Shown one piece after another: positions 241 through 35,957 of a stretch of DNA of 35,957 nt. The notes below the pieces were generated by a model that searched no databases, was not told where the DNA came from, and saw only the letters and a list, made by a program, of their open reading frames with translations. Location of the stretch: the IMG/VR virus record IMGVR_UViG_3300042453_000814, positions 1-35,957 of that record; one strand, 5' to 3'. The number at the start of each line of letters is the position of its first letter. Positions within the stretch are counted from its first letter, which is position 1. The DNA is from a virus. Position numbers and translations under genes: made by a program.

Positions 241-378
241 ATGAAGAAATTTTCTATAGCAATATTAACAAATTTGTTATTAGTCAGTAGTGTATTTGCT
301 TGTCAAACCACTACAATCATTGTTAATGGTAAATTAACAACTTGTACCGTTTGTGGTAATGTAGTTAATTGTTTCTAA
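241..378 (+). CDS. Small secreted Cys-rich peptide, variant A
   Basis: A 45-residue protein with a Lys-containing N-terminus, a hydrophobic stretch (about residues 4-18) and a cleavage-like SVFA-C junction, so it probably crosses the inner membrane and is cut before C21. A lipobox is only weakly met. The mature part is short, rich in Thr and Val, and carries four Cys including a CTVCGN motif, so disulphides or metal binding are possible. ATG 241 is chosen because an AAGGA sits just upstream; a longer in-frame start at 179 would overlap the upstream gene. A close paralogue or allele is at 35023-35160. Function unknown. Confidence 0.7.
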   Translation: MKKFSIAILTNLLLVSSVFACQTTTIIVNGKLTTCTVCGNVVNCF

Positions 379-462
379 CCCCCAGATGAGATCGGCATCA
401 GTAGGCGCAATGCCTACACCCTTCACAAGGAGTGCTACCCCCCTACCGATTAGGGTAGCTTT
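379..462 (+). promoter_or_regulatory. Structured leader RNA with SD-bridging hairpin, variant A
   Basis: Non-coding stretch between the Cys-rich peptide and the nuclease-fold gene. Elements in order are GATCGG (390-395); hairpin 1, GTAGGC 401-406 with GCCTAC 412-417 and loop GCAAT; the Shine-Dalgarno AAGGAG (427-432); and hairpin 2, GCTACCC 434-440 with GGGTAGC 453-459. Then come three bases and the ATG at 463. The hairpin 2 loop holds CCGATT (446-451), able to pair with the upstream GATCGG. If hairpin 2 folds, the SD lies effectively about four bases from the AUG; unfolded it is 30 bases away. The same architecture with covarying stems occurs at 35161-35241. Confidence 0.65.
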
Positions 463-882
463 ATGAGCTTCCAAAAAGACCTACAGAGAGGCTTAGAAGT
501 AGAAGAAATAGTGTTGGGTATTCTGCGGAAGAAATATCCTTCTGCAAGCCTTATAAATGCGTTTAAAGGCTATGATATTTGGATTCCTGAGATTGACAAA
601 GCAGTAGAGGTCAAGTACGACCCGATGAGCCAAGAGACAGGCAATATTGTCATTGAGATTGAGATGTACGATAAACCCTCTGGACTGATGGCAACACAAG
701 CTGATTTCTGGGTTTTCTACGATGGGGAGATGTTTGTAATCATGCCAGTCAAGCATATATTTAAGTGCATATTCGACTGCAAGTTACAGTATGTGGAGTT
801 TGTTGGAAAGGGAGACACCCGATCCAAGAAGGCATTTTTAGTAGATAAAAACACCTTGTTTAAGTACGGCAAGATACTATGA
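463..882 (+). CDS. PD-(D/E)xK nuclease-fold protein, variant A
   Basis: A 139-residue protein. An N-terminal helix with E13-E15 precedes GYDIWIP (D38) and AVEVKYD (E49, K51), which matches the D...ExK active-site layout of PD-(D/E)xK nucleases (Holliday-resolvase/restriction type). The family assignment is from motif spacing only. It lies downstream of a structured leader, and its stop overlaps the stop of the convergent endolysin gene by six bases. The equivalent position at the other contig end (35242-35679) holds a protein that is not recognisably the same sequence. This slot therefore seems to exchange genes between strains. It could be a DNA repair or processing enzyme, or a weapon against competing phages or plasmids. 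Confidence 0.65.
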   Translation: MSFQKDLQRGLEVEEIVLGILRKKYPSASLINAFKGYDIWIPEIDKAVEVKYDPMSQETGNIVIEIEMYDKPSGLMATQADFWVFYDGEMFVIMPVKHIFKCIFDCKLQYVEFVGKGDTRSKKAFLVDKNTLFKYGKIL

Positions 883-2274: not shown

Positions 2275-3840
2275 TTATCGAATAAACCATTCTTCTACAG
2301 ATGCAGAAACATCTCGCATTTTTCTCCATCTTTCGCCCATGACCTGACCTTTAAGAACTTTAACTTGACCGACTAAACCAATAATTAACCATTCATCTCG
2401 ATTTTCTCGGTTAATGTATTCAGCATTAGGATTCCATGCAGGGTTTAATTTGTAGTGTTGAAACTTAATTCCTTTGTCATCATGGGTTTTACGAATTGCA
2501 TTGCTAGGCACATTTATGCCATCAGGAATATTGTGGGATTCATAAGAATGTTTAATAGTTTTGTAAATAGCTTCTTGAGCAGGAATTGCTTGTAATACTT
2601 CATTGCCTTCTTCATCAATTACAGCTTCAACAGCATTAATAGCTTCTTTTTGTAACATTAGCTCTTCCCACTCTAATACATCATGGTCTTCCATAATGTA
2701 GCGGTCAAAGTCATCGGTTAGATACTTATTAGCCCACTTGTTCCATGCGGTATTACCGACTACCATTGATGCTTTGCTTGGTTCTTTTGGTCGAACTACG
2801 CCAATAATATCTGCTGGATTATCAGATTCGGTAGCAAGACGGACTTTGTTGTTTTCTAATACAACTGTGCTTCCAACTGGAATTAATTGTCCTGTAGCCG
2901 ATTCAAAAAATTCGGCATAGTCAGCACCATTGTTATTCCAAGTGCCATCTGCATAACCATTACCATCTCCTCTAAGATTAAATTCTATATCTGCATTTGC
3001 TGTTCCGCTTGAAGAAATTGCATATAAAAACTGATATGCACTATTAGCAGCTCTTACAACAGTAGGAAAAAGCACAGCATCTGCATAACTAGCATTATCT
3101 GCTCTTGTGTAAAAAACTACACTATTTGCTGATTGCCTAAACTCATGATAACTGCTTGTTGCACCAACATAAGTTCCATTATCACTTGCTTTTACATAAC
3201 CATTAGAGGTAATACGCATACGCTCTAATGCCGAAAAATTAGAGTTAACACTAGTATTTCTAAATATAATGTTGTTGTTTGTTCCAGTAGAATTTCCCAA
3301 ACAATCTATATATAAACCACCACTAGCTCCAAATGAATTTTCTTGCCCAGAACCACCTTTAACAATTAATGCTGTATCTGTTCCAGCCAACACTAATCTA
3401 GGACTCCATCCAGCAGAACTAGTAATTGTGGTAGTACCAATCCCCACATTACCACTAGAGTCAATCCTCATCGCCTCTACACCACCTTCTGTAAAGGCAA
3501 TAGTGTCGGCTGCTGGGAAGAAAATACCTGTGTTGGTATCGCCTGATGTGGTAATAGCAGGTGCGGATACTGTTCCTGCTGCAAATGTAGAAACACCTGT
3601 TACAGTAGGATTGCTAAAAGTATTGCCTGTAAAAGTAGCACCAGTAATCGTTCCACCTGTTATCTTAGGTGCAGTCATGGTATATGTGCCATCCCGAATA
3701 CCATCTCCGACATCTCGGATCTGCGCCATCATATCCCGCATGGTATCGTTTACTGCAGATGGGAGCATTCCCTCTGGCGCACCATCTGGAGGTGCTGCGG
3801 TGTTATTAGCAGGGGTTAGAGAATATTTTGTGTATGCCAT
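2275..3840 (-). CDS. Tail fibre/appendage with self-cleaving Peptidase_G2-like chaperone domain
   Basis: A 521-residue receptor-binding-type protein. The N-terminus (MAYTKYSLTPANNTAAPPDGAPEG start, then IRDGTYTMTAPKITGGTITGATFTG) is a virion-attachment and shaft region with short Gly/Thr repeats. The GNVGIGTTT segment is common in phage fibres. From about residue 304, ADYAEFFES, then GVVRP, VVGNTAWNKW (about 360) and KYLTDDFDRY follow the pattern of Peptidase_G2 intramolecular chaperone domains. Those assist trimer folding and then cut themselves off. The expected serine position near VVGN is not certain here. It lies upstream of the lysis genes and probably determines host range. Confidence 0.75.
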   Translation of the reverse strand: MAYTKYSLTPANNTAAPPDGAPEGMLPSAVNDTMRDMMAQIRDVGDGIRDGTYTMTAPKITGGTITGATFTGNTFSNPTVTGVSTFAAGTVSAPAITTSGDTNTGIFFPAADTIAFTEGGVEAMRIDSSGNVGIGTTTITSSAGWSPRLVLAGTDTALIVKGGSGQENSFGASGGLYIDCLGNSTGTNNNIIFRNTSVNSNFSALERMRITSNGYVKASDNGTYVGATSSYHEFRQSANSVVFYTRADNASYADAVLFPTVVRAANSAYQFLYAISSSGTANADIEFNLRGDGNGYADGTWNNNGADYAEFFESATGQLIPVGSTVVLENNKVRLATESDNPADIIGVVRPKEPSKASMVVGNTAWNKWANKYLTDDFDRYIMEDHDVLEWEELMLQKEAINAVEAVIDEEGNEVLQAIPAQEAIYKTIKHSYESHNIPDGINVPSNAIRKTHDDKGIKFQHYKLNPAWNPNAEYINRENRDEWLIIGLVGQVKVLKGQVMGERWRKMRDVSASVEEWFIR

Positions 3841-31725: not shown

Positions 31726-31854
31726 AGATTCTCCTTTTGTAGATCTTTGATTCTACACCTAAACAAACTAAATCTACATATTAGGGAAAGTCCCTAGTAG
31801 AAAGTTCTACATTTATGGTATTCTACATTTGTAGTTTATTCATAGGGGGAAATT
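31726..31854. promoter_or_regulatory. Divergent control region with repeated operator-like sites
   Basis: TCTACA occurs at 31752, 31773, 31806 and 31822 and its complement TGTAGA at 31738. TAGGGA-AAG-TCCCTA (31782-31796) is a perfect palindrome. The strong Shine-Dalgarno AGGGGGA precedes ATG 31855. Promoters for the HTH gene (left) and the recombination operon (right) must lie here. The repeated hexamers and the palindrome are candidate binding sites for the HTH protein. Confidence 0.55.
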
Positions 31855-31947
31855 ATGAAAGATCTAATAGCAGGTGCAGTTGCAGCTTTATTGATGATTG
31901 GTATTCCAATGGCAGTATATGTTTATAGAACTGGGGGAATTTCATGA
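31855..31947 (+). CDS. 30-residue membrane peptide, first gene of the rightward operon
   Basis: Product MKDLIAGAVAALLMIGIPMA then VYVYRTGGIS. One hydrophobic segment (4-24) between charged ends. It has the strong AGGGGGA Shine-Dalgarno and its stop overlaps the next ATG (ATGA). As the first translated gene of the early operon it would be made immediately after infection. Function unknown. Confidence 0.7.
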   Translation: MKDLIAGAVAALLMIGIPMAVYVYRTGGIS

Positions 31948-34757: not shown

Positions 34758-35011
34758 CCTATGAAATGAAAGATGGTAATTTTGTGTTGTTTAAGAATGA
34801 TCGGAAGAAAACCGATAAGCACCCAGACCTTAGTGGCTCGATTATGATAAATGGGGTAGAGCATTGGTTTAATGCTTGGACTAAAGAGGGAAAGAAAGGG
34901 AAGTTTATTTCTGGGCAGATTGGCGATCCCAAGAAGGCTGGATTTACTCCCAAAGGCGATGATGAGATGCCAAAGAGTAGTGGCATTGAGGATGATTTGA
35001 TTCCATTCTAA
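34754..35011 (+). CDS. SSB-like protein (acidic DDLIPF tail)
   Basis: An 85-residue protein. DGNFVLFKNDRKKTDKHPDLSGSIMINGVEHWFNAWTKEGKKGKFISGQIGDPKKAGFTPK has an OB-like, strand-rich pattern, and the C-terminus IEDDLIPF resembles the SSB docking tail (DDIPF). The tail and the coupling to the exonuclease gene support ssDNA binding in recombination or replication. A second diverged copy is at 1-230. There is no recognised SSB core sequence, so the family call is tentative. Confidence 0.72.
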   Translation: MTYEMKDGNFVLFKNDRKKTDKHPDLSGSIMINGVEHWFNAWTKEGKKGKFISGQIGDPKKAGFTPKGDDEMPKSSGIEDDLIPF

Positions 35012-35022
35012 GGAGAATGATT

Positions 35023-35160
35023 ATGAAAAAAGTGATTTTAGTAGTAGTAACAAATATGTTACTAATTGGTAGTGTATTTGCTTGCCAAACAACTACAATT
35101 GTCGTTGGCGGCAAAATAACCACCTGCACAGTTTGTGGTAATGTTGTAACCTGTATGTAA
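35023..35160 (+). CDS. Small secreted Cys-rich peptide, variant B
   Basis: A 45-residue protein: signal-peptide-like start (KKVILVVVTNMLLIGSVFA), mature part CQTTTIVVGGKITTCTVCGNV followed by TCM. The AAGGAG (35010-35015) fits ATG 35023 with seven bases of spacing; ATG 35017 is too close. About three quarters identical to the variant at 241-378, with all four Cys kept. A periplasmic or envelope peptide is likely; target unknown. Confidence 0.72.
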   Translation: MKKVILVVVTNMLLIGSVFACQTTTIVVGGKITTCTVCGNVVTCM

Positions 35161-35241
35161 ACCCCCAATGAGATCGGCATACGAGGTGCAATGCCTCATT
35201 TCCCTAAGGAGTGCCACCCCCCTTCCGATCAGGGTGGCATT
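35161..35241 (+). promoter_or_regulatory. Structured leader RNA with SD-bridging hairpin, variant B
   Basis: Elements: GATCGG (35172-35177); hairpin 1, GAGGT 35183-35187 with GCCTC 35193-35197 and the same GCAAT loop; AAGGAG (35206-35211); hairpin 2, GCCACCC 35213-35219 with GGGTGGC 35232-35238; three bases; ATG 35242. Loop CCGATC (35225-35230) is fully complementary to the upstream GATCGG. Compared with 379-462, one base pair in each stem has changed on both sides and the pseudoknot pair G-U has become G-C. Confidence 0.65.
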
Positions 35242-35679
35242 ATGAATGGCTCAATGTCTTATTCTGAGCGACAAAAGGTAAAGAATAGGGCTGAGTTCCT
35301 TTTTGAGCTATATTGTGCCGAAAAGGACTATAAAGTTACCAGAGTGGGGTTTGATGAGAAGAATAATAGTGTAGATAACTTTTATTATTTGAATCCTGTC
35401 TTGAGGAATTTGCCAGACTATGTAGTGAATACCAATAGTGGCACTTGGGTGGTGATGGTAAAAGGCACAGTTAATATCAAGCAAAAAGAGATTGAACTGC
35501 TGCCTAAACTAATGGATAGTTTTGATAGCGATAAAGCTAAGTTGGTTTATGCCTTTTGTTTCTTGGGAAAAGAACCAAGACTAATTTTTCCACAGAAAGT
35601 AGAAAGTCTGTATAGAAGTGCCACAGATAAGCAATGGCAAGATGGAGTTGTTTATCGGTCATTGGAGATAGAGGCTTGA
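35242..35679 (+). CDS. PD-(D/E)xK-like protein, variant B (different from variant A)
   Basis: A 145-residue protein. RAEFLFELYCAEKDYKVTRVG at the N-terminus, then LPDYVVNTNSGTWVVMVKGTVN has the PD-(x)n-(E)xK geometry (P58-D59, K74), but M72 stands where E is expected. Catalysis is therefore doubtful or the ligand differs. ATG 35242 is used because it matches the leader/start arrangement of variant A; the frame is open back to 35191 through the leader. Same slot as 463-882 but no clear sequence similarity, indicating gene replacement. Its last 21 bases overlap the convergent endolysin gene. Confidence 0.6.
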   Translation: MNGSMSYSERQKVKNRAEFLFELYCAEKDYKVTRVGFDEKNNSVDNFYYLNPVLRNLPDYVVNTNSGTWVVMVKGTVNIKQKEIELLPKLMDSFDSDKAKLVYAFCFLGKEPRLIFPQKVESLYRSATDKQWQDGVVYRSLEIEA

Positions 35680-35957
35680 CTCGGCTTGTCTGCGAAGTGT
35701 TAGCCCTCGGAGTATTTTCCCACCTGCTTTGTTCCATTTTACAAATTCTTGAGCCGCACCAAACACATCATTTCTGTTGTGTTTTTGTCGTAAGGTAGAG
35801 GCTTGTAGATTCCCTAGCCCAACATTAAATGCAAAGCTGACGAGTGCATCAAAGCGAGGCTGAGTAAGACCAGTAGGACATAATCGTAATACCCCTCTTT
35901 CAAAGCGTATAAGATCCTTTTTAAGTAACTCATCTGCTTCTTCCTGTGTAAGCTCTC
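35659..35957 (-). CDS. Endolysin, GH24 lysozyme, variant B (3' part, cut by contig end)
   Basis: Minus-strand frame open from the contig end to TGA (complement of 35659-35661). Its C-terminal portion reads GAAQEFVKWNKAGGK then ILRGLTLRRQAESSLYLQ, clearly allelic to the endolysin at 877-1320. The N-terminal half with the active site is outside the window. Bases 35831-35957 are identical to the first copy; the rest is about three quarters identical. Overlaps the convergent nuclease-fold gene by 21 bases. Confidence 0.85.
   Translation of the reverse strand, partial: ELTQEEADELLKKDLIRFERGVLRLCPTGLTQPRFDALVSFAFNVGLGNLQASTLRQKHNRNDVFGAAQEFVKWNKAGGKILRGLTLRRQAESSLYLQ
35831..35957. repeat. 127-base terminal overlap with 1049-1175
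   Basis: Exact copy of 1049-1175, ending at the last base of the contig. Joining the ends here gives a closed map of about 34,782 bases in which the rightward operon converges on the complete lysis cassette. Confidence 0.85.

Follow-up and report, generated by a model that had tools for sequence, protein, structure and literature searches.

A pseudoknotted RNA at the start codon of exchanged nuclease genes in a group of bacterial viruses, a candidate hairpin-bridged ribosome-binding site

Introduction

Compact pseudoknots that enclose the Shine-Dalgarno (SD) sequence are found in translational riboswitches of the preQ1 and SAM-II types. In the split ribosome-binding sites (RBSs) of phage T4, structure shortens the spacing between the SD and AUG, from 22 to 5 nt in gene 38 and from 27 to 11 nt in gene 25 (PMC3014915). 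The same review of 2010 regards the pseudoknot of T4 gene 32 as possibly the only viral example in translational autoregulation. The STAXI motif is a pseudoknot RNA located near SSB and other DNA-manipulation genes (PMC2864571).

Here we analyse an RNA element in a viral DNA of 35,957 nucleotides (positions 1 to 35,957 of IMG/VR record IMGVR_UViG_3300042453_000814; hereafter, the window). As in T4 genes 25 and 38, a hairpin between the SD and AUG would shorten an over-long spacing, here from 30 to about 4 nt. No pseudoknot is described for these genes in the review (PMC3014915), whereas in the element an upstream strand would lock the hairpin loop; further differences are the leader ORF that runs through the fold and the exchange of the gene behind it. 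The gene 32 operator of T4, T2 and RB69 is likewise an H-type pseudoknot in a phage mRNA, upstream of the start of a recombination gene and connected with SSB biology. The gp32 knot, however, precedes the start codon of the SSB gene itself by 67 nt, whereas the element includes the SD, reaches the start codon and is positioned downstream of SSB, so that it does not precede the start of an SSB gene as an operator of the gene 32 type does. STAXI shares the pseudoknot and the SSB and DNA-manipulation neighbourhood with the element, but occurs as two or three tandem copies in which UUCG loops are frequent, while the element is single and has no UUCG. The preQ1 and SAM-II types are similarly compact and enclose the SD; the element differs from them in having neither an Rfam match nor a metabolic gene.

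Results

Architecture of the element in the window

The positions of the features are summarized in Table 1. The earlier note had proposed that GATCGG pairs with the loop of hairpin 2. Both strands are present where it placed them, and the last pair is indeed G-U in one copy and G-C in the other (CCGATT versus CCGATC). The covariation that it described in hairpin 1 is also found, T402-A416 being replaced by G35183-C35197 around GCAAT. The SD and ATG are separated by 30 nt, of which just 1 + 3 nt lie outside the hairpin at 434-459. This arrangement, an over-long SD-AUG spacing with a stable hairpin in between, is that of a split RBS. The complementarity that forms the small hairpin at the SD recurs among relatives, with a shifting register and without clear covariation.

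Table 1. Features of the element and its neighbouring genes in the window
Feature	Position	Strand	Remarks
Upstream 45-aa Cys-containing peptide	241-378	+	signal-peptide-like start
Whole element	386-466	+
Leader ORF, MRSASVGAMPTPFTRSATPLPIRVAL	386-466	+	TGA overlaps nuclease ATG (ATGA); open in main-group relatives
Pseudoknot 5' strand, GATCGG	390-395	+	6/6 pairs covary with 446-451
Hairpin 1	401-417	+	stem 401-406/412-417, GCAAT loop 407-411; both-side changes in 4/6 pairs
Small hairpin, CCTT-CAC-AAGG	420-430	+	pairs with SD in MFE fold
SD, AAGGAG	427-432	+	exactly 1 nt 5' of hairpin 2
Hairpin 2	434-459	+	stem 434-440/453-459, 12-nt loop 441-452; both-side changes in 6/7 pairs
Pseudoknot 3' strand, CCGATT	446-451	+	inside hairpin 2 loop
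Nuclease A ATG	463	+	3 nt 3' of hairpin 2
Nuclease family A ORF, 139 aa	463-882	+	phrog_13596, function unknown
Second element	35168-35245	+	same locus, other strain (simplest reading)
Second element, pseudoknot strands	35172-35177/35225-35230	+	3' strand CCGATC
Second element, leader ORF	35168-35245	+
Second element, hairpin 1	35183-35197	+
Second element, SD	35206-35211	+
Second element, hairpin 2	35213-35238	+
Nuclease family B ORF	35242-35679	+	predicted Hjc-like Holliday junction resolvase fold (AlphaFold + Foldseek)

The two copies should be considered together with the ends of the window. Positions 1-1175 are homologous to approximately 34786-35957 (76-89% identity, with the final ~135 bases identical). 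Thirteen further IMG/VR records, 34.5-36.5 kb long, carry one strong copy each; one more, G009 (36.9 kb), gives no covariance-model match, but a divergent element is visible by descriptor. Among these genomes, only the window has two copies. Since the contig ends overlap and the other genomes carry one copy, the simplest reading is that the two are alleles of one locus from two strains, not paralogues. The genome is probably circular or permuted, with ends from two strains that differ at the element locus. The two leaders of the earlier note thus exist as stated, but as a single locus at homologous contig ends. The ends, 1-1175 and 34786-35957, have the appearance of a terminal overlap left unclosed by the assembler.

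Covariation of the pseudoknot among relatives

The two copies alone are insufficient to support the fold, because their MFE z-scores are unremarkable (-2.0 and -1.2) and several other places in the window match an unconstrained pseudoknot descriptor by chance. Relatives were found by pattern scans, protein-based scans and a covariance model (R1), and the element was recovered in more than 100 IMG/VR contigs. The carriers are one group of viruses of bacteria. An alignment of 47 distinct sequences (A8) was fitted to a model with the two hairpins but without the pseudoknot.

In this alignment, each of the six pseudoknot pairs has changed on both sides and 99.3% of the cells are paired, values that none of 500 shuffles reaches. 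When the partner strand is slid by 1-3 columns, pairing falls to between 13% and at most 54%. Two broken pairs occur, in L293 and L456. The variants include GATCGG/CCGATY, GATCTG/CAGATC, GATAGG/CCTATC, GAATGG/CCATTC, GCTCGG/CCGAGC and others. Both-side changes are observed in 6 of the 7 pairs of hairpin 2, with 100% of the cells paired, and in 16 of the 19 pairs of the whole structure (99.6% pairing), though part of the hairpin statistics follows from the alignment having been fitted to the two hairpins. Outside the pairs, conservation is found in the 12-nt loop of hairpin 2, which consists of C-N-C-Y-N, the pseudoknot strand and A; the descriptor that recovers the family uses this loop length.

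The alignment contains 31 G-U pairs and no A-C pair. This bias indicates an RNA read from the + strand, rather than a minus-strand RNA or a DNA structure. Structured single-stranded DNA, serving as an origin or as a packaging or recombination site, would agree with the location of the element at the left border of a gene cassette among recombination genes, and the same idea has been raised for STAXI (PMC2864571). However, G-T is a mismatch in DNA and the bias points to transcription of the + strand, which makes this explanation highly improbable.

The both-side changes in relatives, the shuffles and the low pairing of the slid control settle the matter: judged by covariation, the element is a real conserved RNA. 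The compact pseudoknotted fold enclosing the SD, as claimed in the earlier note, is therefore well supported, and the compensatory changes whose absence would have spoken against it are many across the 47 sequences. The fold is also distinct from an intrinsic terminator, as there is no U-tract 3' of hairpin 2; the sequences that follow (TTTATGA, ATTATGA, AAACGC, etc.) have no U-run. Hairpin 1, which had been taken as a core part, does covary but is absent in the divergent half of the family (the GATCTG, GATAGG, GAATGG, GAATAG and GATCGA types, and L412/L413/L435), and on this distribution is dispensable.

Genes around the element

The gene order is a YqaJ exonuclease, SSB, then the 45-aa peptide, another small ORF or nothing, followed by the RNA and a nuclease. 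Lysozyme or spanin genes converge on the locus from the other strand. The SSB gene lies upstream of the element in nearly all loci. The 45-aa peptide is often, not always, present between SSB and the RNA, and is missing in some relatives that retain the RNA, indicating that it is dispensable. This peptide (window 241-378 and 35023-35160) has four conserved Cys residues (CQTxT...CTxC...C) and weakly resembles DUF2574. In one clade, an extra ORF of 49-50 aa (MQQQ..LVLKFLRQGFTIEQIE.. or MINLTEVVTRLLRQGHSI..) is found between SSB or the peptide and the RNA (L382 3255-3430, L309 3138-3292, L350 1392-1542). Elsewhere in the window, at 31791-31860, TTCTACATTT occurs twice shortly before GGGGGAAATTATGAA in an operator- or promoter-like arrangement.

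Four nuclease families were found behind the element: A and B in the window, C in L268, and D in L292 and many others. Relatives of nuclease A occur in pelagiphages. Nuclease A has no Pfam match and its structure prediction failed (pLDDT 44.5); we read it as a PD-(D/E)XK enzyme from motifs such as GYDIWIPE...VEVK. Nuclease B is predicted to fold like archaeal Hjc resolvases (AlphaFold pLDDT 78.6), which are its best Foldseek matches (E 7.7e-6); a PDB sequence search with it gave nothing relevant. Nuclease C matches Pfam PDDEXK_14 above the cut-off, and nuclease D weakly, below it. HNH homing-endonuclease-like genes, judged by sequence reading, lie directly behind the element in L304 (630-1273), L297 (417-1042) and L324 (3142-3374), adjoining short ORFs such as ATGTAA.

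Five pairs of genomes with different nuclease families share DNA similarity of 81-96% up to a few bases from the start codon, and similarity resumes at or past the end of the nuclease. These alignments show that nuclease genes have been exchanged precisely at the start codon behind a fixed RNA. Because similarity breaks at the start codon, the RNA is tied to the site and not to the gene behind it. Recurrence before unrelated genes, the check suggested in the earlier note, is accordingly found for several genes, but always at one locus in one phage group.

The constancy of the element after SSB, whatever follows, and its retention in L335 and L409, which have no nuclease, could also mean that it is a 3'-end element of the YqaJ-SSB transcript, acting in mRNA protection or retroregulation with the nuclease as a passenger. 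We regard this as very unlikely, since it leaves unexplained both the fixed 1-nt SD distance and the ATG 3-4 nt past the hairpin before several unrelated genes.

The leader frame

The leader frame (ATG AGA TCG GCA ...; 78, 81 or 87 nt) is open in all main-group relatives having the ATGAGATCGG start, and ends in a stop codon that overlaps the next start or lies just ahead of it. In three lineages the frame is fused to the nuclease, which suggests that it can be translated. The variable sites by codon position number 12/10/8 and 11/10/6, a weak third-position excess, and several base-pair changes in the element alter leader amino acids. From these two observations, protein-level selection on the leader ORF is weak or absent. 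We also considered programmed -1 frameshifting at the C-run but rejected it, because this run is broken up in L004-type sequences and does not precede the knot.

Ribosomes might translate the leader of 25-28 codons through the knot and reinitiate at the overlapping nuclease ATG, with the fold tuning the throughput. Such coupling agrees with two observations: every main-group variant keeps the frame open up to a stop overlapping the ATG or close to it (ATGA, TAATG), and the fused lineages have no ATG at the usual place. On the other hand, several divergent clades keep the fold without a leader start, no SD precedes the leader ATG, the third-position excess is weak, base pairs are kept at the expense of amino-acid changes, and L201 is frameshifted. 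Coupling as the main function consequently appears quite unlikely.

Position of the hairpin between SD and ATG

Almost all of the listed SD-bearing lineages have 1 nt between the end of the SD and hairpin 2; in L335 the distance is 3 nt. The ATG, where present, is mostly 3-4 nt 3' of hairpin 2 (0, 7 or 11 nt in some), and the 3-4 nt placement is seen with each of the four nuclease families (A to D). The 3' strand of hairpin 2 varies by lineage (AGGG, TGGT, GGAG or AACT), and no equally conserved alternative SD is found.

Since the fold is kept while its letters change and the genes behind it are repeatedly swapped, the element probably controls translation of the gene behind it. We propose, giving the proposal about an even chance, that it is a cis-acting RNA serving a phage recombination nuclease gene as its translation initiation region, in the form of a hairpin-bridged split RBS. 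Once hairpin 2 folds, about 4 nt and the helix base would remain of the 30-nt gap, and a single 30S subunit could contact the SD and ATG together. The upstream GATCGG strand, by pairing with the loop, would lock and stabilize the bridging hairpin. Judging from this anatomy, the fold would raise initiation, to a level that may be set by the lock, by the weak hairpin at the SD (CCUU-CAC-AAGG) and by leader ORF translation. The proposal is based on the covariation of the pseudoknot in an alignment whose model lacked it, the excess of G-U over A-C, the fixed 1-nt SD distance, the ATG mostly 3-4 nt past the hairpin, the lack of a conserved alternative SD, the break of similarity at the start codon between nuclease families, and the precedent of T4 genes 38 and 25.

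Several lineages count against bridging. An 8-nt insert in some sequences places the ATG 11 nt past the hairpin, and the GATAGG/GAATGG clade keeps the fold with no clear SD. In L335 (3296-3349; GAATAG/CTATTC) and L409 (~3403-3470; GGTCAG/CTGACT), no nuclease stands behind the element-like fold, and in L219/L257, L305 and L297/L304/L324 other genes or short ORFs come next. The ribosome may read through the knot in L412/L413/L435, L322/L317/L509 and L360/L365, since there the nuclease frame lacks an ATG 3' of hairpin 2 and extends without a stop to an in-frame ATG further upstream. Initiation at ATT in the L360/L322 types was not adopted, as the upstream in-frame ATG explains them equally and the L412-type has AAA there.

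The same region might instead serve as a translational off-switch, in which the pseudoknot and SD hairpin close the initiation region until a ligand, a protein or a leader ribosome refolds it; a phage or host protein, such as the SSB encoded just upstream, would be a candidate trigger. The SD pairs with CCUU in the MFE fold, a proximal SD-like sequence is present on the 3' strand of hairpin 2 in some lineages (AGGAG in L064), and gp32 on the T4 gene 32 pseudoknot provides a precedent for the SSB found upstream in nearly all loci. But neither an alternative fold nor the proximal SD is conserved, the SD hairpin shows no covariation, and the SSB gene is upstream of the element, not downstream. 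We consider the off-switch unlikely. The earlier note had likened the element to the fold used by translational riboswitches; this likeness finds no support, since the element is linked to recombination nucleases, not metabolism, and the order SD, 1 nt, hairpin, 3 or 4 nt, ATG resembles a bridging split RBS.

Searches for known relatives

No family matches among the Rfam covariance models at gathering and relaxed thresholds, in agreement with the earlier view that no described RNA class is involved. The Rfam STAXI model has no match at the gathering threshold or at E up to 10, and no tandem repeat is present. INPHARED gave no blastn match. Among named phages, homologues of nuclease A, nuclease B or SSB are present in Venkman, P19250A, DC33, zth2-2, C72C1, C75C1, HTVC025P and Mae-JY35, none of which has a model match in the regions examined. 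One scan of genome contigs for a host or prophage link gave five matches, all of which fail the covariance model, and thus yielded no such link.

Discussion

We rate the element as a new RNA family and a putative variant of the split-RBS kind of mechanism, its novelty being judged on Rfam and the open-access literature. A more far-reaching reading is possible, though we hold it only tentatively: the family would switch the translation of phage recombination resolvases in response to a factor, as a self-contained control module that forms the fixed left border of a cassette in which unrelated PD-(D/E)XK nucleases are swapped exactly at the start codon, and that in some lineages is translated within the nuclease.

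If bridging holds, the family would represent a naturally varied set of RBSs in which a pseudoknot locks the SD-AUG spacing, and would offer many variants for testing how the 30S subunit handles structure between the SD and AUG. The locus also suggests that the gene under a control element can be replaced by unrelated, functionally similar genes while the element itself remains in place.
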